NCBI GenBank assembly: GCA_030586155.1
Contig: CP130741.1
Coordinates: 1,606,680 to 1,670,679 of the forward strand
Origin: Eubacteriaceae bacterium ES3
GTDB lineage: Bacteria; Bacillota; Clostridia; Eubacteriales; Eubacteriaceae
Reading direction: 5' to 3'
DNA: 64,000 nucleotides
The notes beneath the pieces are model-generated. The model did not search any database. It saw only the letters and a list, made by a program, of their open reading frames with translations, and had not been told where the DNA came from. A program made the position numbers and the translations under genes. Positions 10,434 through 53,540 of this stretch are shown here, piece after piece. How positions within the stretch are numbered: position 1 is the first letter of the stretch; the number at the start of each line of letters is the position of its first letter.

Positions 10434-10607
10434 CCTGAATTATTCATCCAGATACAATTAACGGCACATTGTGCCGCATAGATACAGTGTTTTTGATTAT
10501 TTTTGCTTTTCACTAAATAAGTGAAGCTAAGACAATAGAAAAAGAGCTCCAACTTTGTTAAAATTTAAGTGACCAAACCAAAACCAAACAAAGGAGAAAC
10601 TCTTCAT

Positions 10608-11924
10608 ATGTCTAGTTTAGATGCACTTCAGTTAGAAAGCAATAAAAAAATCAAAATAAATTTCGATGGCGGTGATTTATCCTCTGATTCCGGACTGATT
10701 CTGATCAAAGAATTTGCTCATAAATTCAGTTTCCATAAACATGTCAGCAACTTCAAAACTGATGAGAAGACCAGTCGTCAGCATAAGGATGATCAAAACC
10801 TGTGCCAAATGGTATATCAGATCATTGCTGGTTACTTTGAAGATGACGATGCTGATGAATTGACAAATGAACCTGTCTTTACAAACATTCTGGGTAAAAA
10901 AGCACTGGCTTCTCAACCGACTCTGTCAAGATTCTGGAACCGGATGGATGATAAAACGCTGCCAAAATTTGATGCCATCATTAAAGCAATGCGGACATCT
11001 GCTTATAAAATAAAACGTCCAAAACAGGTATTGCTGGATTTGGACTCCACCCTATTGAATACCTATGGAAAACAGGAAGGTGAAGGTTTCAACTATCATT
11101 ACAGGGTACATGGTTATCATCCATTACTTTGTTACGACGGATTAACCGGTGATCTGCTGAAAGCAGATCTCCGTGATGGAACGGACTACAGTTCCACTGG
11201 GGTTGTTGATTTTATGCAACCTCTACTTGATGAATATTTCACGGAGTATCCCGACATAGAGCTGTATTTACGTGGTGACAGCGGGTTTGCAACGCCTGAT
11301 TTGTACAAGCAATGCGAAACCAATGGTGTGTCTTATGCGATCCGTTTAAAAGCGAACAGTGTTTTAAATGACAAAGCGAAACATCTTGATCATGAAATAT
11401 TTGAAGCGATGAAAGAAGATATGTCCCAGTATATTGTCCGCTATGATGAGTTTTATTACAAAGCAGGCAAGTGGGAGTACCCGCGCAGGGTAGTTGTTAA
11501 AGTGGAGAAACCTTGCAATCAGTTCACCATTCAGCATTCCTTCATTGTAACCAATATGGACTTGAAACCTGAAGAAATCCTAAGATACTATCGTAACCGA
11601 GGCACTATGGAGAATTTCATCAAAGAAAGCAAGTCCGGATTTGGCTTCGCTTCTACCGGAAGTAAATCCAAAGTAGTCAATGCCAACCGACTGCAACTGC
11701 ATGTGTTGGCTTATAATCTGTTTAATTGTTTCAGACGATTGGTTCTGCCGAAGAGCATGAAAAAGATGCAGATCGATACCATTCGTTTAAAGCTGCTAAA
11801 AATTGCTTCGAAAATCGTAAAAGCAGCAAGCTATATTTATTTCAAGCTATGTAGCAGTTGTCCCTACAAAGATGAATTTTATAAAACTTTAGAAAATATC
11901 AGACAACTTCCGCAGCTGGAATAA
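10608..11924 (+). CDS. IS1380-family transposase
   Basis: A 438-residue DDE transposase. Candidate catalytic residues are Asp in LLDLDSTLLNT, Asp in YLRGDSGFATPDLY and Glu in RNRGTMENFIKESK, the last being the family's C-terminal signature; the N-terminal DGGDLSSDSGL segment is also typical. The ATG at 10608 lies 11 bases after GGAG; an in-frame GTG at 10569 has no better site. The frame is complete and uninterrupted. It should cut and paste the surrounding element by acting on the 18-bp ends. Confidence 0.93.
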   Translation: MSSLDALQLESNKKIKINFDGGDLSSDSGLILIKEFAHKFSFHKHVSNFKTDEKTSRQHKDDQNLCQMVYQIIAGYFEDDDADELTNEPVFTNILGKKALASQPTLSRFWNRMDDKTLPKFDAIIKAMRTSAYKIKRPKQVLLDLDSTLLNTYGKQEGEGFNYHYRVHGYHPLLCYDGLTGDLLKADLRDGTDYSSTGVVDFMQPLLDEYFTEYPDIELYLRGDSGFATPDLYKQCETNGVSYAIRLKANSVLNDKAKHLDHEIFEAMKEDMSQYIVRYDEFYYKAGKWEYPRRVVVKVEKPCNQFTIQHSFIVTNMDLKPEEILRYYRNRGTMENFIKESKSGFGFASTGSKSKVVNANRLQLHVLAYNLFNCFRRLVLPKSMKKMQIDTIRLKLLKIASKIVKAASYIYFKLCSSCPYKDEFYKTLENIRQLPQLE

Positions 11925-12109: not shown

Positions 12110-12211
12110 AGAATCATATATTTATTTTCAACCATAATTTAAAAATTAATATCTTTCTGGACTTAAAACATTTATAAGAAATAATAGAGCAAGAACTAAA
12201 CAGTTAAAAAA

Positions 12212-12258
12212 AACAGCCCGAACCAATACTTACAAGATTACAATTGGTTCGGGTTGTT
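12212..12258 (-). terminator. Intrinsic terminator of the rubrerythrin gene, bidirectional
   Basis: AACAGCCCGAACCAAT (12212-12227) pairs over 16 positions with ATTGGTTCGGGTTGTT (12243-12258), with one G-T. A long A run on the left gives the U tract for the minus-strand rubrerythrin transcript. Confidence 0.85.
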
Positions 12259-12327
12259 TTATAGGATTAACTTAGTAAGACACTGCTAAATGCAATTATT
12301 TTTTTGCAGGAATCAGGAATATTGATT

Positions 12328-12924
12328 TTAGTATGTTTCAACAAACAGTTCAAAGTAGGCTTTTGCATGTTTACAGGCCGGACATTCGTCAGGTGCTTCA
12401 GAACCGTCATAAATATATCCACAGTTGCCACACTTCCATTTAACGTCACCAAAACGTTTAAACACACGGTTCAGTTCAAAGTTAGCAGCTAGCTTTAAAT
12501 AACGGGTTTCATGAGCTTTTTCAGCAACGACTACCTGTAACCATGTTTCTGCAATTTCCGGGAAACCTTCTTCCTTAGCAACTTCTGCAAATTTCGGATA
12601 AAGTACATTCCATTCTTCGTTTTCGCCTGAAGCAGAATGCAATAAATTGTTTTTGGTGTCACCAAATGCTACCGGGAATGTAGATGATACAGGTATTTCT
12701 ACCGCTTCACCCATTTTGTATTCATTTGCTGCAATGTGTTTGTAGAATAACTCCCCATGTTCTTTTTCATTATCGGCAGTTTCTGTAAAAATATTGCTGA
12801 TCTGTACATAACCTTCTTTTTTCGCGATTGAGGCAAAATACGTGTAACGCATTCTAGCCTGACATTCTCCGACAAAAGATTCCATCAAGTTTTTCAAGGT
12901 TTGTGTTCCTTCTAATTTACCCAT
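12328..12924 (-). CDS. rbr: Rubrerythrin
   Basis: A 198-residue rubrerythrin that reduces hydrogen peroxide in the cytoplasm of anaerobes. The diiron four-helix domain supplies Glu and His ligands in ESFVGECQARMRY, TADNEKEHGELF and VVVAEKAHETRYL. The C-terminal rubredoxin-like domain holds iron through two CxxC pairs, CGNCGYIYDG and CPACKHA. Length is standard. AAGGAG precedes the ATG. A perfect PerR-type operator lies 19 bases upstream of the start codon, so induction by peroxide is expected. The gene is monocistronic, with its own strong terminator. Confidence 0.97.
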   Translation of the reverse strand: MGKLEGTQTLKNLMESFVGECQARMRYTYFASIAKKEGYVQISNIFTETADNEKEHGELFYKHIAANEYKMGEAVEIPVSSTFPVAFGDTKNNLLHSASGENEEWNVLYPKFAEVAKEEGFPEIAETWLQVVVAEKAHETRYLKLAANFELNRVFKRFGDVKWKCGNCGYIYDGSEAPDECPACKHAKAYFELFVETY

Positions 12925-12942
12925 TTTTACTCCTTATCTCCT

Positions 12943-12957
12943 TTATAATGATTATAA
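12943..12957 (-). promoter_or_regulatory. PerR-box operator upstream of rubrerythrin
   Basis: TTATAATGATTATAA on the plus strand, reading TTATAATCATTATAA toward the gene, matches the Bacillus PerR consensus TTATAATnATTATAA at every defined position. A TATAAT (12966-12971) lies just upstream on the minus strand and may be the -10 box. Peroxide-sensing repression is inferred; no perR gene is in the window. Confidence 0.75.
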
Positions 12958-12997
12958 ACACTTTAATTATACCTGATTTGTGGCATAATTTAAATGG

Positions 12998-14776
12998 TTA
13001 TTTAACATATATTTGTTGAATAAACGAAACCAGTGCTTTGGCTGCTTCAAAAGGGCCATCCTGCTCATAGCCCTGAATGCCTAATTGAGTTCGGAGCATC
13101 CCGATTTGAATTCCCTGTTGGGCCATTTTTTCAAAGGTTTGTTTAGCTATTTTTTCATGCTCTGTTTTTTTCTGAACAGCGCCAAAAGGATTGGCAAAAT
13201 ATGTCGTTGTTAGTCCTACTTCGCCGGTCGTTCCTTTAGCCATTCTTTTACCCTCAGAGAATACAGAATAAGCATTTTCTAAATCATCAAATAATTCGAT
13301 CACTGGGATATCGTCGTCGATCTTTTCATAATTATTAATATAGAAAACATAGTCGACACGTGTAGATTTAGAAATTTCTTCATAGGTCATTTGTGGAACA
13401 ATTACCCTGGCATTAACAATATTTGGGTTCATGAAAATACTGCGATCCATTGTACTGTAAGCATAGCCTGGTTGTAAATCGTCAAGTCGAACAAATGCAC
13501 CAATTTCGGTTCCGACGGCGTTTAATCGTCCTGATTCATCAAAATGGAGAGAGCCCATATCATCAATTAAGATATCAACTTCACAGGCAAGTTCTTTGGG
13601 TAATTTGTTTATTGCTTCCAAAGTTTCAGATTTGCCGGCGCCACTATCGCCTATTAGCATAATATTAATCGATTTTTTACCTCCCACTCGAATCTTGGCA
13701 AATGCTCCATGAACTGGGAGATTACCTTTTTCAATCTGGATTAGATTATGAAGTGTTAGCATCATTTTTTTCATATACCCAAAATAATCCACATCAGCAT
13801 CATGCGGCAATAAACCATAGTATATATCATCCTCTTTAACAACAAAACCCTTCATTTCGTCTTTCTCAAAGAGTGTTTTAGGAAGACCGAAAAAAACTAC
13901 AGAATCAGGTTTTTGCCGTGTAAATTCTTCAGGGGTGGCCAGTTCAAAGAGATTAAAAAGACCTGTTCCCAATGCAAGGAATTCCTTTTGAACATATACT
14001 AAGGACAAAAGGCGTCCAACTTTAACAGGAATTGCAAACCATTCATCAGGATCAAGATAAAAGTTTTTGAGAATTTTTTTTTCTTTAACAGGAAATATTC
14101 CAACTCGTTTACTTGCCTGAGTATAAAAAATAACCGGAGGTTCAAAAATAGCTTCCCATACAAAATTGACCCGATATAAAGATTCGTTTTTGGTTTTAAT
14201 TTCGCGGCTAAATTCAAATTTATCAGCTAAAAATGCGACTTGAGCTCCACTAGGAAGTTGACGGTAAATATTAAAACTTTTACCGGTGACGTTAAAATGA
14301 ATATTTCTGTACAAGTCGAGAATCATTTTTTTAAATGTATCATTATTTGAGGCTAGCGAATGTGCTTTGGAGCGTTTGACTTTTTCGTCTGAACTGTAAG
14401 AATCAGTTTTGACCATAAATCTCTGGACAGATCGCCAATAATTATAAAAGCTTTCCAGAAAGCCTACAAAGAGAGCAGAATATTCATCATAGGATACTTT
14501 TATGTCAAAATATCCGGATTTCATAATTTCTTCCAGGCCATTAATGTTCAGGAGATAAATAAAGTCAAAAAAAGCATCTTCAAGAAACTCACCTTCATCA
14601 GTATAAAAAGGTTCAATGGCGAGAACAAGAGAAGATTTCTTTACTTCTAGTTCGTCGATAAATGTTTTCATAAGATTTCTGAAAAGTGTCGATTTAATAA
14701 TTTGTCCAAATCGGGTAAAATGCAAATCCCCTTTAATCAGAGCGGTTCTTTCCAAATTCGTATTATAGGATTTCAT
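12998..14776 (-). CDS. Large P-loop protein with HPr-kinase/PEPCK-like nucleotide site
   Basis: A 592-residue soluble protein I cannot assign to a named function. Around residues 372-390 it has LIGDSGAGKSETLEAI, which is the P-loop of HPr kinase/phosphorylase (GDSGxGKSET) more than a generic Walker A, followed by a hydrophobic strand ending in DDMGSL that could supply the second acidic motif. The 370 residues before it match nothing I know, and length is about twice that of HPr kinase. The closest folds are HprK and ATP-dependent PEP carboxykinase. AGAGGTGG precedes the ATG. It lies 29 bases downstream of a phosphoglycolate-phosphatase-like gene and is probably cotranscribed with it. Confidence 0.6.
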   Translation of the reverse strand: MKSYNTNLERTALIKGDLHFTRFGQIIKSTLFRNLMKTFIDELEVKKSSLVLAIEPFYTDEGEFLEDAFFDFIYLLNINGLEEIMKSGYFDIKVSYDEYSALFVGFLESFYNYWRSVQRFMVKTDSYSSDEKVKRSKAHSLASNNDTFKKMILDLYRNIHFNVTGKSFNIYRQLPSGAQVAFLADKFEFSREIKTKNESLYRVNFVWEAIFEPPVIFYTQASKRVGIFPVKEKKILKNFYLDPDEWFAIPVKVGRLLSLVYVQKEFLALGTGLFNLFELATPEEFTRQKPDSVVFFGLPKTLFEKDEMKGFVVKEDDIYYGLLPHDADVDYFGYMKKMMLTLHNLIQIEKGNLPVHGAFAKIRVGGKKSINIMLIGDSGAGKSETLEAINKLPKELACEVDILIDDMGSLHFDESGRLNAVGTEIGAFVRLDDLQPGYAYSTMDRSIFMNPNIVNARVIVPQMTYEEISKSTRVDYVFYINNYEKIDDDIPVIELFDDLENAYSVFSEGKRMAKGTTGEVGLTTTYFANPFGAVQKKTEHEKIAKQTFEKMAQQGIQIGMLRTQLGIQGYEQDGPFEAAKALVSFIQQIYVK

Positions 14777-14805
14777 ATGCCACCTCTCTCAAAATTATTT
14801 TTGTT

Positions 14806-15456
14806 TTATAAATTAACAATATCAATTAATTCAGAAATTTGGTCAATCGTGTAAGTTGCTCTTTCTGTTGTTTCATCAGCAGCGCCAAAACCGTATGATA
14901 CCCAAACCGAATCAACTTTTGCAGCTAAAGCGCCGCTAATATCAAAAAGCGTATCACCAACCATTAATACTTCCGATTCATCAGTGATTTGATAATCCGC
15001 GAGAAAATCATTAATCAGTGATTTTTTATCACTGCGGCTTCCATCATTACGAGTTCCATAGATTTTTTCAATAGGAATATCCACCTTAAGATGTCCGAGA
15101 ATTTTTCGTGCTAAGTTCTCATTTTTTGTGGTAGCAACACCAACTTGAAGTCCAAATTCGTTTAATTTGAAGATAGTTTCAGCTACTCCGGGATAAAGAA
15201 TTGATGTATACATCTGACCATTTTCATTATATTCTTCACGATAATATGCATAAGCCTGTTTAGATTCATCAAGGCTATAGCCGAAAACTTTCTGGAAGCT
15301 TTCTAGAATTGGAGGACCAATGAGATCATCAGGATTGAAGATTGGATCTTTGGGAAATCCCATTTTTCTGATGGCATATTCAAAAGAACGGATGACACTG
15401 GTTTTCGAATTGATTAAAGTTCCGTCTAAATCAAATAGTATTGTTTTATACTTCAT
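14806..15456 (-). CDS. HAD hydrolase, phosphoglycolate phosphatase/PpaX-like
   Basis: A 216-residue HAD phosphatase with subclass I cap. Motif I is FDLDGTLINS, motif II VGVATTKNE, the motif III lysine falls in SDKKSLIND, and motif IV is VLMVGDTLFDISGA. Relatives remove phosphate from 2-phosphoglycolate, or pyrophosphate in the case of PpaX, which works with HPr kinase in Bacillus. The next gene encodes a protein with an HPr-kinase-like P-loop, which makes the PpaX comparison worth noting but not proven. The ATG at 15456 has GGGAGG 4 bases upstream; the TTG at 15468 overlaps that site. Confidence 0.85.
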   Translation of the reverse strand: MKYKTILFDLDGTLINSKTSVIRSFEYAIRKMGFPKDPIFNPDDLIGPPILESFQKVFGYSLDESKQAYAYYREEYNENGQMYTSILYPGVAETIFKLNEFGLQVGVATTKNENLARKILGHLKVDIPIEKIYGTRNDGSRSDKKSLINDFLADYQITDESEVLMVGDTLFDISGALAAKVDSVWVSYGFGAADETTERATYTIDQISELIDIVNL

Positions 15457-15629
15457 GAATCCTCCCAAATGTGATTTTTTATAGACTTATATTCATTATA
15501 AACGAGATGTGTTTAGGCAACAAGTTAAAATATTATCCGGTGTATATATTTTATCAGACTTTATTCGCTAATATATTATTCTTGATTCAAGTAGAAAAAT
15601 TGTAACTTCTCTTAATAAAGACAATTTGA

Positions 15630-15658
15630 TTGTTGCTACTCCCCTTCCATGATATAAT
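15630..15658 (+). promoter_or_regulatory. Predicted promoter of lemA
   Basis: TTGTTG (15630-15635) and TATAAT (15653-15658) are 17 bases apart, with TGA before the -10 box. It lies about 48 bases before the lemA start. Confidence 0.65.
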
Positions 15659-15705
15659 GAAAAAAATGTTTTCCAAATTTTGGAAATAAAAAATGGAGGT
15701 TTACT

Positions 15706-16266
15706 ATGTTGATCGGATTGTTTATTGTCCTGGGAATTATTGTAATTTTTCTTATTTGGCTTGTTTCAACACGAAATAGTTTTGTCAAAATTAAAAACCA
15801 GGTTGAAGAAGCTTTTTCCACTATGGATGTTTACCTGAAAAAAAGATATGACCTAATTCCCAATCTGGTAGAAACTGTTAAAGGGTATGCAACCCATGAA
15901 TCAGAAACTTTTCAGAAAGTTACTGCTGCTCGAAATGCTGCTATGAATGCCGGAACCATTGATGAAAAGATTGCAAATGAAAATATGTTGAGTGGTACTC
16001 TAAAGAGTTTATTTGCAGTAGCAGAAGCCTATCCTCAACTACAGGCAAATACTAATTTTTTAGATTTGCAGAATCAATTGCAGACGCTCGAAGGAGAAAT
16101 TGCCAATTCTCGTAAATATTACAATGCTAATGTTCGGGAAATGAATACAAAGGTTGAGATGTTCCCCAGTAATATAGTTGCCGGGATGTTTAATTTCAAA
16201 AAACAGCCTTTCTTTGAAGTTGGCAGCGAAACAGAAAGAGAAAATGTTCAAGTAAAATTTAATTAA
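15706..16266 (+). CDS. lemA: LemA family membrane-anchored protein
   Basis: A 186-residue LemA protein: an N-terminal membrane segment (residues about 2-22, rich in I, V, L) followed by the characteristic FVKIKNQVEEAFSTMDVYLKKRYDLIPNLVETVKG helix region, here cited only by its ends and the YDLIPNLVETV core. The rest is a soluble helical bundle outside or inside the membrane depending on orientation. Family function is poorly defined. GGAGG precedes the ATG. It is followed after 16 bases by a DUF2207 protein, a pairing seen often in bacteria, and both share the promoter upstream. Confidence 0.92.
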   Translation: MLIGLFIVLGIIVIFLIWLVSTRNSFVKIKNQVEEAFSTMDVYLKKRYDLIPNLVETVKGYATHESETFQKVTAARNAAMNAGTIDEKIANENMLSGTLKSLFAVAEAYPQLQANTNFLDLQNQLQTLEGEIANSRKYYNANVREMNTKVEMFPSNIVAGMFNFKKQPFFEVGSETERENVQVKFN

Positions 16267-16282
16267 CGAAAGAGAGAAGCTT

Positions 16283-18199
16283 ATGAAAAAGAAGAGCTTT
16301 CTAATTTTCATCGGGTTCGTCCTTCTGATTGTTTTTCCTGGAAGCGTTAATGCTGCTGAATATTTTGATATTTCCAGTTATGATGTGGTGATGAATGTTT
16401 CCGAAGACCATGCCTACGAAATTGTAGAGACATTAACTGTAGAATATTCTGAACCACGTCATGGTATCTATAGGTATATTCCCTATACCGGAAGTTTCTA
16501 TCGCAATATCAATGGACAGAATGTGGAGACCCGTTATACCGCTAAAATTTCTGATACAGATGTACCAGGTTGGAAATACGAAACTTATACAGAAAACGAC
16601 AATTTTGTTTTTCAGATAGGCGATGGAGATAAGTACATTGACGGGACTCAGATATTTCCGATTCACTTTACCTGGGATCCGGGAGATGACGGGATTGATT
16701 CTATGGATGATGTTTACTACAATATTATTGGTATGCAATGGGATACCAATATTGATAATGCCAGTTTTACAATCACCATGCCAAAAGATTTTGACAGCAA
16801 TCAGATAGAATTTATTACAGGAACTTATGGATCTATTGACACCTCATCAGTAGATTTTACGGTTGATGGTAATACGATTTATGCAAAACTTAATCGTCCA
16901 CTTGCACCCAATGAAGGTGTTACTTTAAATATCCGATTACCTGAGGGCTATTTTGTCGGGGCGTTTACTGGGAGCGAATATCAGCCGATATTTTATATTG
17001 TTACATTACTATCGTTGCTTGCGACAATTATTTTCTGGTTTATTTACGGCCGTGATCTTAAACCGGTTGAGCCAGTGTCGTTTTATCCACCAAGAAATTT
17101 TACTCCATCTCAGATTGGGTATATTATTGACGACGCTGTTGATAAAAAAGACGTGCTTGCTTTAATTATGTATTGGGCGGATAAGGGCTATTTAAAGATC
17201 GAGCAAGTCAGTAAAAAGCGATTTACATTTCATAAGATAAAAGATCTTCCAGCTGACGCACTTGATTTTGAAAGAACTTTTTTTGATGGTATGTTTGATC
17301 ATAAAACTACTTTTTCAACTGCTAAAGTTCCTTCAGATTTCTACGAGACTTATCAGGCTACATTACGTCAGATTACTGATTATTTTAATACTGATGAAAC
17401 GAGGATCTTTACCACTGGTTCGCAAGCTGGATGGTTGCTCACCTCAGTCCTGATGTTTTTCCCGATTATGGCACTGCTTCTCAATGGACTACTCAAAAAT
17501 AGTTATTTTATAGCATTTTGGGAAGGGATGTTCTTTTGGGGTATTTGTGCCGCTTTTACGGTGGTTCCTTTAATTGTTGGTTTACGAATTGTGATCTCGG
17601 CTGTCAGAAAGAGAAAGAGCTCTTCAGCACCAAAAACGACAGCAAAAATTATCGGTGGAGCTGTTATGGCAGGCTTTTTTTCATTAATTGTGATTATTGT
17701 AAATTATGGTTTATTTGAGGTTGATTCGCTAGTATTACCGCTAGTAGCCCTTTTGACGACGTATCTGATTGCTTATTTTAATATTTTCATGCATAAACGA
17801 ACTGAAAATGGTCGTCTCTGGTTTGGTGAAGTTTTAGGATTTAAGAATTTCCTTGACAAAGCTGAAAAAGACCGTATTTTAAAACTTGTTGATGAAAATC
17901 CGGAATATTATTTTAATATTCTTCCCTATGCTTATGTTATGGGAGTTACTGATAAATGGGCAAAGAAATTCGAGTCTATTGAGATAAAAGAACCAAGCTG
18001 GTATTATGGAAATACTACTTATAGTACATTTTCGTCAATCTATTTTACTACAGCACTAATGCACAGTATGAATCATATTTCTTCAGACATGATCGTTACC
18101 CCTAAATCCGGAGATGGCGGATTCGGAGGCGGTGGTTTTTCTGGAGGCGGTGGTTTCTCCGGAGGCGGAGGCGGTGGTGGCGGTGGCGGAAGCTGGTAA
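16283..18199 (+). CDS. DUF2207 membrane protein with glycine-rich tail
   Basis: A 638-residue protein with an N-terminal signal peptide (KKKSFLIFIGFVLLIVF, cleavage likely after VNAAE), an extracellular beta-rich DUF2207 domain (about residues 25-235), a membrane segment near 240, a cytoplasmic domain containing PRNFTPSQIGYIIDDAVDKK, and further membrane helices around 380-410, 455 and 480. The last 30 residues are almost only glycine with Ser, Phe and a final Trp, the usual ending of this family. Role unknown; probably an envelope protein acting with LemA, its cotranscribed neighbour. Confidence 0.88.
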   Translation: MKKKSFLIFIGFVLLIVFPGSVNAAEYFDISSYDVVMNVSEDHAYEIVETLTVEYSEPRHGIYRYIPYTGSFYRNINGQNVETRYTAKISDTDVPGWKYETYTENDNFVFQIGDGDKYIDGTQIFPIHFTWDPGDDGIDSMDDVYYNIIGMQWDTNIDNASFTITMPKDFDSNQIEFITGTYGSIDTSSVDFTVDGNTIYAKLNRPLAPNEGVTLNIRLPEGYFVGAFTGSEYQPIFYIVTLLSLLATIIFWFIYGRDLKPVEPVSFYPPRNFTPSQIGYIIDDAVDKKDVLALIMYWADKGYLKIEQVSKKRFTFHKIKDLPADALDFERTFFDGMFDHKTTFSTAKVPSDFYETYQATLRQITDYFNTDETRIFTTGSQAGWLLTSVLMFFPIMALLLNGLLKNSYFIAFWEGMFFWGICAAFTVVPLIVGLRIVISAVRKRKSSSAPKTTAKIIGGAVMAGFFSLIVIIVNYGLFEVDSLVLPLVALLTTYLIAYFNIFMHKRTENGRLWFGEVLGFKNFLDKAEKDRILKLVDENPEYYFNILPYAYVMGVTDKWAKKFESIEIKEPSWYYGNTTYSTFSSIYFTTALMHSMNHISSDMIVTPKSGDGGFGGGGFSGGGGFSGGGGGGGGGGSW

Positions 18200-31366: not shown

Positions 31367-33022
31367 TTATTGATGCTGATTAGTTTGGGCCAAGGACTGG
31401 CGGCAGATCTCGGGCAGCTGATCGGACCAGGGAAGAAAAGGTTCCAGTGCGACCTCGTCATCGCAGTTTATATCCGGCAGACGTTCAAAGAGAAATTTGA
31501 GATATTCATAAGGGTTGAGCTCATTAAGTTTGGCACTCTGGATCAGGCTGAAGGCAGTGGCGGAAGCTTTGGCACCATTGGCTGTTTTACAGAAAAGAAA
31601 GTTTTTTCTGGCCACAACAAAAGGCTTGATCTGTTGTTCGGCAATGTTGGTGGAAAGTTCACATTGGCCGTCAAGCAAAATGTTTTCCAGTACAGTCTGG
31701 TGTTTGAGACTGTAGTTGAGCGCTTTTCCAAAGGCGCTTTTGGGAAGGGTATTCTGCGACATTAATTTTACCCATGCGAAATAAGCTGTCATCAGCGGTT
31801 TAAGCTCTTTTTCCCGTCGCTCCTTACGCTCTTTCGGGGTCAGGTCTTCTTTTAACAGCGCTTTCTCAAAGACAAACATTTCACCTATCATCTGAACGGC
31901 CTGCCAGGCTTCGGTTTCGGTTTTTATAGTCCCTTTTGGCAATGCTTTTAGCGCATCAGTGTATTGACGTCTGGCATGGGCAAAGCAGCAGACCCGGGTA
32001 ATATCGGTTACGCTGTTATAGCCGTCATAACCGTCCGTTTGAAGGATTCCTTTGAAATTTTCAAGGAAATTTTTGGGGTGTTTGCCACTCCGGGACGGCT
32101 GATATTCAAACAACGCCATGGGTTTTCCGTATTTCCCGGGACGATACAGCCACATATAGGCCTTGCTGGTACAGGCTTCCCCATCTTTAGTCAGAACTTT
32201 CAGTGATGTCTCATCAGCCATCAGAAAGCTTTCTTTTTCCAGATGTTTTTTCATCAGCCGGTAGAGGGGTTCAAGGTAACGCTCACTGCCTTTGATGATC
32301 CAGTTGGACATCGTCGCGCGGGACAGTTCAATGCCAAAGTGTTTAAAGGTCTGCTCCTGCCGGTAAAGAGGCAGGGCTGCCGCAAATTTCTGGTATAGAA
32401 TATAAGCAAGCAGACTTGGCGAAACAAAGCTGCCCGAAATAACCGGATTGGGCGCTTTAGCTGTAATAATCGGCGTTTTGATCTCATGATCCTGACAGTG
32501 TCGGCAGGCATACACTTTTCTGACATGTTCCACCCGCACCACTTTGGCGGGAATCACTTTGAGCTCCTGGCGCACTTCCTCCTTCATCTGATGCAGTGAA
32601 TGGTCACACACAGGGCATACTTTCTCATCTTCATTAAGATCATAAACAATGCGTTCAACCGGCAGATCATCAAAAGAATCCCGGTTCAGTCCCCGCTTTT
32701 TACGGCGGTGGGTAGCCACTTCGATGGATGGTTCTTCCTGCTCAGGGCGTTTCGTCACCTCCGGCTCATTAAAAAAAGAGATCTGGTTTTCAATTATGAC
32801 AGTGTCAGCGGATTTGCCGAAGCGCTTCTGGGCATTCAGACGCAACTGTTCTTCGTACCATTTAATTTTTGCCTGCGCTTCTTCAAGTTCTGAATTCAGC
32901 CGAGTGTTTTCACTCTGAAGTTCAGTGATGACAGATAAAAAATCCAGTGCCGGATCTTGTGTTTCTGTTTCTGTTAAACTGTTTTCTTTACCCATCTGAT
33001 GCTTATACCGCTTTCCTGTCAT
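31367..33022 (-). CDS. tnpC: IS66-family transposase TnpC
   Basis: A 551-residue DDE transposase. The order is an N-terminal leucine-zipper-like coiled coil (SENTRLNSELEEAQAKIKW), a zinc-binding CPVCDHSL...CRHCQD segment, then the catalytic domain with LMADETSLKVL, LQTDGYDGYNS and CFAHARRQY, and the final glutamate in LSTNIAEQQIKPFV. Length is normal. The ATG at 33022 lies 6 bases after GGAG; a TTG four codons earlier overlaps that site. It depends on TnpA and TnpB encoded upstream. Confidence 0.96.
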   Translation of the reverse strand: MTGKRYKHQMGKENSLTETETQDPALDFLSVITELQSENTRLNSELEEAQAKIKWYEEQLRLNAQKRFGKSADTVIIENQISFFNEPEVTKRPEQEEPSIEVATHRRKKRGLNRDSFDDLPVERIVYDLNEDEKVCPVCDHSLHQMKEEVRQELKVIPAKVVRVEHVRKVYACRHCQDHEIKTPIITAKAPNPVISGSFVSPSLLAYILYQKFAAALPLYRQEQTFKHFGIELSRATMSNWIIKGSERYLEPLYRLMKKHLEKESFLMADETSLKVLTKDGEACTSKAYMWLYRPGKYGKPMALFEYQPSRSGKHPKNFLENFKGILQTDGYDGYNSVTDITRVCCFAHARRQYTDALKALPKGTIKTETEAWQAVQMIGEMFVFEKALLKEDLTPKERKERREKELKPLMTAYFAWVKLMSQNTLPKSAFGKALNYSLKHQTVLENILLDGQCELSTNIAEQQIKPFVVARKNFLFCKTANGAKASATAFSLIQSAKLNELNPYEYLKFLFERLPDINCDDEVALEPFLPWSDQLPEICRQSLAQTNQHQ

Positions 33023-33121
33023 TATCCACTCCAATTACTTATGATTGGCATAATATCGCCGTTTTATGATGCTATTATACCATAGATCAGCTGACAAAAA
33101 AAGCTTTTTCAACCTTATTTT

Positions 33122-49817: not shown

Positions 49818-52800
49818 TTATTTAAAATATGAAACGCCTGCTTCAAATATTTTCTGATCAGTTAAGCCAGGGATATTTTTATAAAGTCCAATCCCAACTC
49901 GCTCAGAATGGCCCATCTTACCTAAAATTCGACCATCAATACTGGTAATTCCTTCCACAGCAAAAGCAGAACCATTTGGATTGAAAGCTCCTTGCATGGT
50001 TGCATTGCCGTCTTGATCAACATATTGTGTCGCAATTTGTCCATTTTGAATTAATTCTTTTAGAACTTCATCACTGGCCACGAAACGGCCTTCTCCATGA
50101 GACATAGGTATTCGGTAAATATCGCCTACCTGGGTATTTGCCAGCCATGGTGAGAGATTAGAAGCAATCCGCGTCATAGGAATAGTAGATACATGACGAT
50201 TAATTGTATTATAAGTTAGAGTAGGCATATTTTCCTTAAGTTCACAAATTTCGCCGTACGGAACCAAGCCGAGTTTAATTAAAGCCTGGAAGCCGTTACA
50301 GATACCCAGCATTAGACCATCACGATTTTTAATAAGATTCATGACTTCGTCCATCATCTGCGGATTTCGGAATACCGACGCAATAAATTTACCCGAACCA
50401 TTTGGCTGATCACCAGCACTAAAGCCCCCAGGGATCATAATTATCTGTGATGTTTTAATAAGTTCTGACATTTCATCGATGGAGCTTTTTATTTGTTCAA
50501 TGGTCTGATTTTTAAAGATCGCAGTTACTGGTTTGGCCCCAGCTCTTTCAAATGCCTTTACTGTGTCATACTCGCAATTTGTTCCCGGAAAAACAGGTAT
50601 AAAGACCTGCGGCTGACCAGTTTTAATTTTTGAAGAAATTGTGACTCCCTTTTTATAAGAAAGGGTTTCAACTTTCTGGTCAAGATCAATTTTTTCAGGG
50701 TATACTTCACTTAATGGAGCTTCCCATGTTTTAATCAGGTCAGCAATTTTAATTGTTTCTTTATTAAAGCGAATTTCAGCAGATTCAGTTGTTTTTCCAA
50801 TTAATTGAGCGCCTTTTATCTGTTTTTCTGATTCAATCAGAATACTTCCGTAAGACTTTTCGAATATTTCGTTTAAAGATAATTCTGGTGAAATTTCGAC
50901 ACCAATGCTATTTCCTGCACTCATTTTAAAGATGGCTTCAGCCAGCCCTCCCCCGCCAATGACCTTTGCACTAATAATAGAAGCAGACTTGATTTCATCC
51001 TCAATGATTTCATACATTAATTTAAGCTTATTGAGATCTGGAATTAAATCAGTGTCAGTTGGGCATTTAAAGAGCTGTACAATTGTGTTGGGTTTTTTAA
51101 ATTCGCTGCTGATGATTTGACTTACATTTGATGGGACTACTGCAAAAGAAATCAGTGTTGGTGGAACAGATAGTTCGCCAAAGCTTCCAGACATACTATC
51201 TTTACCGCCAATTGCTGGTGTTTCGAATGCTTTTTGAGCTTCATGAGCGCCAAGTAGAGCGGCGAAAGGTCGTCCCCATTTCACAGGTTCGTTTCCCAAT
51301 CGTTCAAAATACTCCTGAAAACTCAAGCGAGCTTTCTTATATTCTCCACCCATGGCGACTATTTTTGAAAGTGATTCGATCACTGCCATCATTCCACCAA
51401 GATAAGGGCTTTTCTTGGCAATTTCCGGATTATAGCCGAAACTCATGATACTGCAGGTTGTGGTGTCTCCATGTTCGACAGGAATTTTAGCAACCATTCC
51501 ATCCATTGGGGAGAGTTGATTTTTTCCACCAAAAGGCATGACAACTGTACCAGCTCCTATAGTTGAATCAAACATCTCAACCATACCCTTCTGACTTGTA
51601 ATATTTAAGTCGCTTAGTAGTCCTTCAAATTGAATTGTAAAATTTTTCTCGTTAGACGGGGTAGTGCCCATCGGACCAATTGCTTCAACAGATATATCTA
51701 TAAATTGATCAGCACCGTTTGTTTCCAGAAAATTTCTTGAAATATTTAGAATCTCCTGTCCTTGCCAGTTCATGATTAAACGACCGGTATCTGTAACGTT
51801 AGCTACAGGAGTCACTTCAAGATTTTCCAGATTTCCAAGTTCAATAAATTTTTCGACGTTGATTTTATCGACTACTACTGCCATTCGTTCTTGAGATTCT
51901 GAAATTGCCAGCTCCGTTCCATCCAGACCATCGTATTTTTTGGGTACTTTGTCTAAGTCAATGAGCAAACTATCAGCGAGTTCACCAATAGCTACAGATA
52001 CCCCACCGGCACCAAAATCATTACAGCGCTTGATCATTGCAGCAAGATTTTTATTCCTGAACAATCGTTGGATCTTTCGTTCTTCAACTGGATTACCTTT
52101 TTGTACCTCAGCGCCACTATCTAAGATAGATTCTTCCGTGTGAGCTTTTGAGGATCCAGTAGCTCCACCACAGCCGTCTCGTCCGGTTCGTCCGCCAACA
52201 AGCAAAATTACATCACCAGGTAAAGGTTTTTCACGAATTACATTTTCTTTTGGTGCAGCGGCAATTACAGCACCAACTTCCATTCGTTTAGCTAAAAATC
52301 CTGGATCATAAATTTCAGTAACCTGTCCAGTTGCCAGACCTATCTGGTTACCATAAGAACTGTAACCGGCTGCCGCTTCTTTGCAGATTTTCAATTGTGG
52401 AAGTTTGCCGGGCATGGTGTCTTTTACTGAAACACGGGGGTCCCAGGCTCCTGTAACTCGCATCGCCTGATAAACATAGCTTCTCCCTGATAATGGATCT
52501 CGAATGGCGCCACCTAAACAGGTTGCTGCACCGCCGAAAGGTTCGATTTCTGTTGGATGATTATGCGTTTCATTTTTAAACATCAGAAGCCAATCTTCGT
52601 TGACGCCATCATGATCAACTTCTATATTGATACTACAGGCATTAATCTCTTCTGATTCGTCAAGATCCTGGAGTACTCCACGTTTTTTAAGCACTTTTGT
52701 ACCCATTACAGCGAGATCCATTAAACACATAGGTTTTTGTTTTTCAGTCCCATAAAGGTCTTCTCGATCATTGAGATAAGCGGTATATGCTCTTTTCATT

Positions 52801-53540
52801 TCCTGCGAGATTTTGTCTTCTCCCTGAAAAACAACACTCTCAATTTGAGTATTGAAAGTTGTGTGGCGACAATGGTCAGACCAGTAAGTATCAATTACTT
52901 TTAATTCAGTAATTGTCGGATTGCGTTTTTCCTCATCACGAAAATAATTCTGGACAAAAGCAATATCATCTTTTGTCATTGCATAACCTTCTTCAAGTCT
53001 GTATTTTTCAAGGTCAGCTTCATTAAAATCAACAAATCCGGAAATTACACCAATTCTTTCTGGTAAACGAACGTTCTCATTTAAAGTTATGTATGGTTCC
53101 AGGGCGGCTTCTTGAGAATCAACCGGATTGATGAAATACGCTTTAATGCTATTAAATTCTTCTTGAGAGAGATCACCTATTAGTATAACGATTTTTGCAA
53201 CTTTTACCAGAACCTGTACTCCAGCTACAATTTGAATACATTGAATCGCTGAATCTGCATGCTGGTCGTATTGACCAGGAAGATAAGAAATACCGAAGAT
53301 TTGAGATGATTCTTCGGTTTTAATCTGATCTTCAAATACTGAATCAACATTCGCCTCTGAGAGGATCTTATTGACAACTTCATTCATCTGATCTTCAGTT
53401 AAACCTTCCACATCATAACGATATAGGATTCTTGAAGACTGTAATGATTTAATATTAAGCAGATTCTGAACAGTATTTGTCAGTGCACCTGCTTCAACGT
53501 CAAAATTATCTTTTTTTTCTACAAAAATTCGTTTGATCAA
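49818..53540 (-). CDS. purL: Fused phosphoribosylformylglycinamidine synthase (PurL with glutaminase)
   Basis: A 1240-residue single-chain FGAM synthase. Order: N-terminal PurS-like region, linker with YWSDHCRHTTFNT near residue 210, two AIR-synthetase-like halves (MFKNETHNHPTEIEPFGGA in the first, PFAALLGAHEAQKAF and PAIGGKDSMSGSFGE in the second) and a class I glutamine amidotransferase from about residue 980 (FPGTNCEYDT, IPGGFSAGDQ, catalytic Cys in LGICNGFQAL, final SHGEGRF). Separate purS and purQ are therefore not needed. This long form occurs in Proteobacteria and many Clostridia. The start is TTG after AAAGGTGG. It heads the operon. Confidence 0.96.
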   Translation of the reverse strand: MIKRIFVEKKDNFDVEAGALTNTVQNLLNIKSLQSSRILYRYDVEGLTEDQMNEVVNKILSEANVDSVFEDQIKTEESSQIFGISYLPGQYDQHADSAIQCIQIVAGVQVLVKVAKIVILIGDLSQEEFNSIKAYFINPVDSQEAALEPYITLNENVRLPERIGVISGFVDFNEADLEKYRLEEGYAMTKDDIAFVQNYFRDEEKRNPTITELKVIDTYWSDHCRHTTFNTQIESVVFQGEDKISQEMKRAYTAYLNDREDLYGTEKQKPMCLMDLAVMGTKVLKKRGVLQDLDESEEINACSINIEVDHDGVNEDWLLMFKNETHNHPTEIEPFGGAATCLGGAIRDPLSGRSYVYQAMRVTGAWDPRVSVKDTMPGKLPQLKICKEAAAGYSSYGNQIGLATGQVTEIYDPGFLAKRMEVGAVIAAAPKENVIREKPLPGDVILLVGGRTGRDGCGGATGSSKAHTEESILDSGAEVQKGNPVEERKIQRLFRNKNLAAMIKRCNDFGAGGVSVAIGELADSLLIDLDKVPKKYDGLDGTELAISESQERMAVVVDKINVEKFIELGNLENLEVTPVANVTDTGRLIMNWQGQEILNISRNFLETNGADQFIDISVEAIGPMGTTPSNEKNFTIQFEGLLSDLNITSQKGMVEMFDSTIGAGTVVMPFGGKNQLSPMDGMVAKIPVEHGDTTTCSIMSFGYNPEIAKKSPYLGGMMAVIESLSKIVAMGGEYKKARLSFQEYFERLGNEPVKWGRPFAALLGAHEAQKAFETPAIGGKDSMSGSFGELSVPPTLISFAVVPSNVSQIISSEFKKPNTIVQLFKCPTDTDLIPDLNKLKLMYEIIEDEIKSASIISAKVIGGGGLAEAIFKMSAGNSIGVEISPELSLNEIFEKSYGSILIESEKQIKGAQLIGKTTESAEIRFNKETIKIADLIKTWEAPLSEVYPEKIDLDQKVETLSYKKGVTISSKIKTGQPQVFIPVFPGTNCEYDTVKAFERAGAKPVTAIFKNQTIEQIKSSIDEMSELIKTSQIIMIPGGFSAGDQPNGSGKFIASVFRNPQMMDEVMNLIKNRDGLMLGICNGFQALIKLGLVPYGEICELKENMPTLTYNTINRHVSTIPMTRIASNLSPWLANTQVGDIYRIPMSHGEGRFVASDEVLKELIQNGQIATQYVDQDGNATMQGAFNPNGSAFAVEGITSIDGRILGKMGHSERVGIGLYKNIPGLTDQKIFEAGVSYFK

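Follow-up and report, generated by a model that had tools for sequence, protein, structure and literature searches.

The window analysed here is a stretch of 64,000 nucleotides from Eubacteriaceae bacterium ES3, whose genome comprises 3.39 Mb in one contig, and the subject of this work is a gene on its minus strand encoding a 592-amino acid P-loop protein, for which we use the name KPL. We read KPL as probably being (probability roughly 0.6) an active nucleotide- and metal-dependent enzyme that carries out chemistry of the phosphoenolpyruvate carboxykinase (PEPCK) type on a small carboxylic acid, and not an HPr kinase; about half of this probability falls on oxaloacetate itself as the substrate. 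The reading is built on homology, the fold of a predicted model and residue conservation, and from these we infer the activity, the nucleotide, the metal and the substrate. Judged by sequence, the open reading frame (ORF; 12998..14776, ATG start) is a real gene and not a chance ORF, because it keeps 61-91% identity among its own relatives and 33-41% further out, with invariant blocks: GKSE, DDMG and three further blocks are retained in 79/79 KPL sequences (the 79 rows used for all block and motif counts include the window's and some identical pairs). An earlier note on this DNA had described a 592-residue protein with the HPr kinase form of the P-loop, and this description stands. The gene and its parts are:

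12998..14776, minus strand: KPL, with a predicted PEPCK fold and an HprK-type P-loop (from the ORF, structure prediction and profiles)
14225..14776, minus strand: N-terminal extension, mostly helical, residues 1-184, without a confident fold match
13787..14224, minus strand: PEPCK-like N-terminal domain, residues ~185-330, with the invariant R224 near Escherichia coli Arg65 but out of register
13754..13786, minus strand: motif Y331-F-G-Y-M-K-K337...T341, aligned with E. coli PEPCK Tyr207-Gly209-Lys212-Lys213
13706..13717, minus strand: P354-V-H356-G357, whose His356 pairs with His232 of E. coli PEPCK and also with the HprK HG
13622..13651, minus strand: P-loop GDSGAGKSET, residues 376-385
13553..13564, minus strand: Walker B-like D405-D406-M407-G408, aligned to the DD of HprK and GTP-PEPCK and placed otherwise in the E. 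coli-led alignment
13478..13510, minus strand: T423-E-I-G-A-F-V-R-L-D-D433 block, in which Arg430 is like E. coli Lys288 by eye and the alignment puts Lys288 at Val421
13406..13414, minus strand: N455-A-R457, whose Arg457 pairs with Arg333 of E. coli PEPCK

An AlphaFold2 model of KPL, built on a 22-row alignment, reached a predicted local distance difference test score (pLDDT) of 82.5 and a predicted template-modelling score (pTM) of 0.83. Compared with the PDB by Foldseek, the model had a best E-value of 1e-16, and all 50 best matches listed were ATP- or GTP-PEPCKs. In VIA-align, the best match was a Thermus PEPCK (Z 21.0, root-mean-square deviation (rmsd) 3.4, 357 residues aligned, model residues 194-592); the 50 best matches listed were again all ATP- or GTP-PEPCKs, nearly all of them covering about residues 183-592, with 10-17% identity in the structural alignments listed. 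The earlier note had proposed setting a predicted structure against HprK and PEPCK: PEPCK made up all 50 best matches listed and HprK was not among these, its presence further down the VIA-align ranking being possible. A viral structure library gave 2 matches at E <= 0.001, both giant-virus PEPCKs. On this model, the predicted architecture of KPL is a mostly helical extension of ~180 residues followed by a two-domain PEPCK body over residues ~185-592. The first 370 residues had been called unfamiliar, which holds for residues 1-~180, where there was no confident match, and fails for residues ~185-370, which lie within the PEPCK-like span. Folded alone with AlphaFold2, the N-terminal domain had a pLDDT of 72.3, and Foldseek found nothing convincing for it (best E 2.0). 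The best of 71 chains in VIA-align was a HemAT sensor domain (Z 4.2, 121 residues aligned, rmsd 4.0); since a match of this quality is what any ordinary bundle of helices might give, we make no claim of kinship from it. Arg172-Gln173, within the helical N-terminus, are invariant.

Profile-profile comparison of the KPL core (residue 185 on) gave E-values of 2.5e-9 with DUF4914, 1.4e-6 with HprK (172 columns), 5.6e-6 with ATP-PEPCK (277 columns) and 2.4e-4 with GTP-PEPCK; the comparison pairs gave 0.0046 (ATP-PEPCK versus HprK) and 0.016 (ATP- versus GTP-PEPCK). The KPL values are those of single comparisons made with a KPL profile containing two misread rows (L115, L128), and they give a rough order only. 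The comparison sets were kept by motif (HprK 26/31 loci, PEPCK 28/30, GTP-PEPCK 12/16) and match their own filtering P-loop motif by construction; three of the four dropped GTP-PEPCK loci were the lowest-scoring of the 16, i.e. divergent GTP-PEPCKs, and the filter shifted the E-values (ATP- versus GTP-PEPCK, 2.4e-4 before and 0.016 after; KPL versus GTP-PEPCK, 1.1e-4 before and 2.4e-4 after). The corrected L115 and L128 rows were used for the invariance counts, the E. coli-led and N-domain alignments and the motif counts, and with them a local profile alignment of KPL to the E. coli-led PEPCK set gave E 3.8e-8 over 332 columns. The search of the P-loop domain and of residues 1-370 suggested in the earlier note has an answer in two parts: by profile, the core matches DUF4914, HprK and PEPCK, and by structure comparison, residues 1-~180 match nothing confidently. 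At the level of curated models, the window's KPL had nothing above cut-off in Pfam or NCBIfam, the lowest E-values being those of PEPCK models; in Pfam, ABC_tran came next after PEPCK_ATP (E 0.0083), DUF4914 scored 13.7 bits (cut-off 25.7), and the HprK model PF07475 did not match it within an E limit of 1. Among 22 KPL family members, Pfam PEPCK_ATP was matched by 5 and DUF4914 by 2 (E < 0.001), and in NCBIfam a PEPCK subfamily was matched by 6 (best 7.1e-5) and the ABC transporter ATPase LivF by 3 (best 5.5e-5). A Lentilactobacillus relative barely clears the PEPCK_ATP cut-off (26.9 bits).

The local alignment with E. coli PEPCK pairs Y207 with Y331, G209 with G333, K212 with K336, K213 with K337, H232 with H356, S250 with S378, K254 with K382, T255 with S383 and R333 with R457. 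The KPL residues Y331, G333, K336, K337, H356, K382, S383 and R457 are identical in 27/27 representatives (KPL sequences below 70% identity, one of them archaeal); S378 is Ser in 22 and Thr in 5, and within the P-loop G379 and A380 each vary once. We take Tyr207, Gly209, Lys212, Lys213, His232 and Arg333 of E. coli PEPCK to have metal- and oxaloacetate-binding roles; the mutants Y207F, G209S, G209N, K212I, K213S, S250A, K254S, R65Q and D269N are named in titles of PDB entries for PEPCK. D405-D406 are invariant in the 27 representatives and aligned with the DD of HprK and GTP-PEPCK; Asp406 would be the equivalent of Asp269 because these two alignments, not the E. coli-led one, place it there. 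By motif, GKSE is present in 79/79 KPL, 26/26 HprK and 12/12 DUF4914 sequences, and in 0/28 ATP-PEPCKs and 0/12 GTP-PEPCKs (the exact pattern GxSGxGKSE in 66/79 KPL); YxGxxKK is present in 79/79 KPL and 28/28 ATP-PEPCKs, and in 0/26 HprK and 0/12 DUF4914; and ExRGxG, the HprK signature behind the P-loop, is present in 26/26 HprK and 0/79 KPL. The likeness to HPr kinase put forward earlier survives in the form of the P-loop and in the HprK profile match, and not as an enlarged HprK, a candidate rejected on the missing ExRGxG, the missing HprK Pfam match, the predicted PEPCK fold and the retained PEPCK substrate and metal positions.

In an active KPL, the nucleotide would be held by the P-loop (Lys382, Ser383) and a divalent metal by Lys337, His356 and Asp406; a carboxylic acid like oxaloacetate or phosphoenolpyruvate (PEP) would be held by Tyr331, Gly333, Lys336, Arg457 and perhaps Arg224, and phosphoryl transfer would take place between the nucleotide and the enolate or hydroxyl of this acid. 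Small-acid chemistry is favoured over a protein target because the residues kept include those that handle PEP and oxaloacetate, in addition to nucleotide handlers. We guess that the helical N-terminus was probably added for regulation, oligomerisation or capping.

KPL was found in 22/41 close relatives searched (19/19 of the genus, the own genome counted, 3/6 others of the family and 0/16 others of the order). In the class, 391 genomes gave 22 matches, one covering just 75 residues; in the phylum, 398 genomes gave 45 profile matches, 25 of which (own genome counted) span at least 507 of the 581 positions, the other 20 being confined to the surroundings of the P-loop or, once, to the C-terminus. 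Four of the six weak-match loci looked at hold DUF4914 proteins. Several same-genus rows equal proteins of named Acetobacterium records in both identity and score, from which the host is very probably an Acetobacterium or a near relative. Carriers include Acetobacterium species, Eubacterium callanderi, Thomasclavelia, Faecalibacillus and a Lentilactobacillus. Plasmid records gave 1 KPL match, phage records gave none, and a Limosilactobacillus fermentum plasmid carries a KPL relative annotated as phosphoenolpyruvate carboxykinase. KPL is also present in 5/99 genomes of the family of the archaeal metagenome-assembled genome (MAG) Candidatus Methanovirga procula (L052, counted), one as a split gene (L237-L242); since five genomes carry it, the archaeal copy is unlikely to come from a single contaminated contig, and this distribution suggests transfer of KPL between bacteria and methanogens. 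In one MAG of the window's genus (L015/L028), an in-frame TAG interrupts KPL, by sequencing error or decay. The own genome has an ordinary HprK elsewhere (C1:911845), between UvrC-like and PHP-like genes named by ORF reading, and the ORFs listed there include no HAD; the ATP- and GTP-PEPCK models match nothing in this genome. The idea that KPL replaces an absent PEPCK fits the own genome; G429 carries KPL and is listed without ATP-PEPCK, and in the genomes of L051, L052 and L053 the sole PEPCK_ATP match is KPL itself by place and frame (L051 and L053 by coordinate conversion). G477 and G509, with ATP-PEPCK, and G552, with GTP-PEPCK, speak against this idea. One KPL relative being publicly named PEPCK, and the own genome lacking a PEPCK match, metabolic models may carry a wrong or missing reaction.

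KPL is flanked by two genes:

14806..15456, minus strand: HAD-superfamily protein, 216 amino acids from ATG, motifs DLDGT and GDTLFD
12328..12924, minus strand: rubrerythrin gene, downstream of KPL

As the earlier note had it, the HAD gene lies directly upstream of KPL on the same strand, with a gap of 29 bp; its ORF runs 14806..15468 from a TTG or to 15456 from an ATG preceded by a GGGAGG Shine-Dalgarno-like stretch, and of the 22 genomes with KPL in the set of 41 relatives, 20 (own counted) show the arrangement. The protein clears Pfam HAD_2 (102.8 bits, gathering score 23.8). The label PpaX-like proved not to be specific: the protein scores 84.4 bits against NCBIfam PpaX (cut-off 218) and 86.7 against phosphoglycolate phosphatase (cut-off 225), and on its sequence it earns the name of neither PpaX nor Gph, because the scores are nearly equal and both are below the curated cut-offs. 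Among solved structures it comes nearest, at 103-110 bits, to two putative HAD phosphatases and to a HAD-like chain that bears a kinase name, Protein Tyrosine Kinase A (6f2x, 103 bits). Across 79 distinct KPL loci (81 KPLs distinct in the last 300 residues, minus 2 with short upstream sequence; a set different from the 79 motif rows), HAD is adjacent in 19 (the window's counted), all of them from Acetobacterium/Eubacterium kin, one more lies near a stop-interrupted KPL, and 59 have no similar HAD (L091 in the window's family, 58 outside). In a quick tree, which included the misread rows L115 and L128, the HAD-linked KPLs group within 22 rows that also hold L035, without HAD. The two genes look like a genuine operon confined to one lineage and not like something that KPL needs in general; given the short gap, they are probably co-transcribed in Acetobacterium and Eubacterium, where we guess that the HAD enzyme may act on a product or by-product of KPL that carries a phosphate, and so dispose of it. 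In Bacillus, PpaX is encoded with HprK; a literature search for this pairing gave no paper. Of the parallel kinase/phosphatase pair suggested earlier, what holds is that the HAD gene does adjoin KPL in the lineage of the window, and the loss of pairing in relatives, named in advance as speaking against it, was partly observed, at 59 of the 79 loci.

The rubrerythrin gene, 73 bp downstream, is probably not part of KPL function; it also follows KPL in L035, L055 and L091, all without HAD, and is in this respect a steadier neighbour than HAD. A pair of LemA-like (by reading) and DUF2207 genes (15706-18199) is divergent from HAD-KPL, and proteins of its clusters are again encoded next to KPL at Acetobacterium and Eubacterium loci. 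In the Erysipelotrichia (L037, L041, L045, L047, L049 and others), KPL often comes after a row of genes for a PBP5-like carboxypeptidase, STAS, HATPase, a sigma factor and signal peptidase, and this row resembles the sporulation sigF operon; the L037 proteins were assigned with Pfam, those of the other loci through their BLASTP clusters. MBL, CmpB and Lrp/AsnC genes lie near KPL in the f44 genomes, genes for a TatD DNase and for an ABC transporter in the f60 genomes, and elsewhere it adjoins varied genes, many without identification; no gene common to the KPL neighbourhoods across the family was seen, and no substrate is inferred from context. Scans of 12200-15800 were uninformative for promoters (18 promoter-like sites versus 13.0, standard deviation 3.8, in shuffles) and for terminators (1 terminator-like site versus 2.5 in shuffles). 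Elsewhere in the window there are two transposase genes (10569-11924 and 31367-33034, of DDE_Tnp_1_4 and IS66 type) and, at 49818-53540, a single-chain 1240-amino acid protein with AIRS_C, FGAR-AT linker and GATase_5, beside other purine genes; this enzyme is split in many Bacillota.

Several results weigh against KPL being an enzyme with PEPCK-type chemistry. The window's KPL scores 16.1 bits against PEPCK_ATP (cut-off 26.5, E 0.0049), and the PEPCK loop GLSGTGKT is found in 0/79 KPL (the window's loop is GDSGAGKSE); since it fails both the Pfam cut-off and this loop, we do not accept KPL as a plain PEPCK_ATP member. A phmmer search of PDB chains gave 2 matches, both USP14 (best E 0.025, chance-like over residues 211-258), and the 22-row KPL profile gave 23 matches up to E 1, mostly ABC-type or other P-loop proteins, reaching two HprK sequences at E 0.88 and 0.99; neither search returned a PEPCK within its E limit. 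Global-mode alignment of KPL with PEPCK gave nothing significant (E 0.62), the Foldseek TM-scores of the model are low, about 0.37-0.48, and model residues 512-532, containing conserved blocks, are of low confidence. E. coli Arg65 is unplaced in the local alignment, the N-domain alignment setting the invariant Arg224 nearby and out of register, and Asp268/269 and Lys288 lie where the E. coli-led alignment is shifted. Finally, ATP-PEPCK coexists with KPL in G477 and G509 and GTP-PEPCK in G552, because of which the substrate or role of KPL may not be exactly that of PEPCK.

Part of this evidence would fit a small-molecule kinase with a PEPCK fold, acting without decarboxylation on a substrate unlike oxaloacetate or PEP: the window's KPL is below every Pfam and NCBIfam cut-off, PEPCK coexists in three genomes, and the invariant R172, Q173, E384, E387, D432 and D433 have no established PEPCK counterpart, nor is an Arg65 equivalent established. 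We nevertheless find this rather unlikely, as the residues that in E. coli PEPCK touch oxaloacetate are kept where the alignment places them. An HprK-like role for KPL, in which it would be a protein kinase or kinase/phosphorylase targeting HPr or some other protein and opposed by the HAD protein as phosphatase, appears more doubtful still; the HprK match of the P-loop domain (E 1.4e-6), the shared GKSE loop and upstream histidine and the adjacent HAD gene of the Acetobacterium/Eubacterium kin are what one would expect of it, but ExRGxG occurs in 0/79 KPL, a PEPCK-like substrate domain and its residues are kept, HAD is absent at 59/79 distinct loci and a normal HprK is encoded elsewhere in the own genome. 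That KPL is a PEPCK homologue without catalysis or with a regulatory function only, to which the additional N-terminal domain, the patchy distribution and the lack of any known activity might point, is very improbable in view of the P-loop, DD, HG, KK and N455/R457, kept in 27/27 representatives including the archaeal one. The small-acid enzyme thus remains the preferred reading.

A wider proposal, which we regard as possible and put forward tentatively, is that KPL and DUF4914 make up a third branch, so far undescribed, of the PEPCK/HprK superfamily, recognised by a PEPCK body that carries the GKSE loop. Such a branch would be a living intermediate between metabolic carboxykinase and protein kinase and would act on a carboxylic acid of its own; in acetogens, the HAD protein would remove the phosphorylated product or by-product of KPL. 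The superfamily itself is already known, and PEPCK and HprK have already been put in one kinase group (PMC1079889). The literature search found no description of a family combining a PEPCK body with a GKSE loop, and DUF4914 was not named in it. DUF4914 is an uncharacterised family of ~620 amino acids (L131-L134; L093-L104), above cut-off in 13/196 sampled class genomes.

Compared with the known systems, KPL is like PEPCK (ATP PF01293, GTP PF00821) in its predicted fold over residues ~185-592 and in the positions of E. coli Tyr207, Gly209, Lys212, Lys213, His232, Lys254 and Arg333, and its NAR block resembles the N[AS]RF of 12/12 GTP-PEPCKs; it is unlike PEPCK in its HprK-type GDSGAGKSE loop, its N-terminal extension of ~180 residues and its scores below the Pfam and NCBIfam cut-offs. 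With HprK (PF07475) it shares the GxSGxGKSE P-loop, the HG histidine ahead of it, the DD behind it and the profile match over 172 columns, whereas it differs in lacking ExRGxG and an HprK Pfam match, in its PEPCK-like substrate domain and in its length (592 residues versus about 306-354 in the HprK set). DUF4914 (PF16260) has the lowest E-value of the four profiles compared with the KPL core (2.5e-9), GKSE in common with it, and a likeness to it in the blocks AKKG (12/12 DUF4914), NPRV (10/12) and E.GWF.R (12/12), of which AKKG and E.GWF.R mark DUF4914; KPL differs in having YxGxxKK, which occurs in 0/12 DUF4914, and the window's KPL is below the DUF4914 cut-off. The HAD neighbour, for its part, is like Gph and PpaX in its HAD_2 domain and its DxDGT and GDxxxD motifs. 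Since the sequence shared by PEPCK and HprK is slight (E 0.0046) and the KPL core reaches 5.6e-6 with the former and 1.4e-6 with the latter, KPL can serve as a link in sequence between the two for studying the divergence of a metabolic enzyme from a protein kinase.

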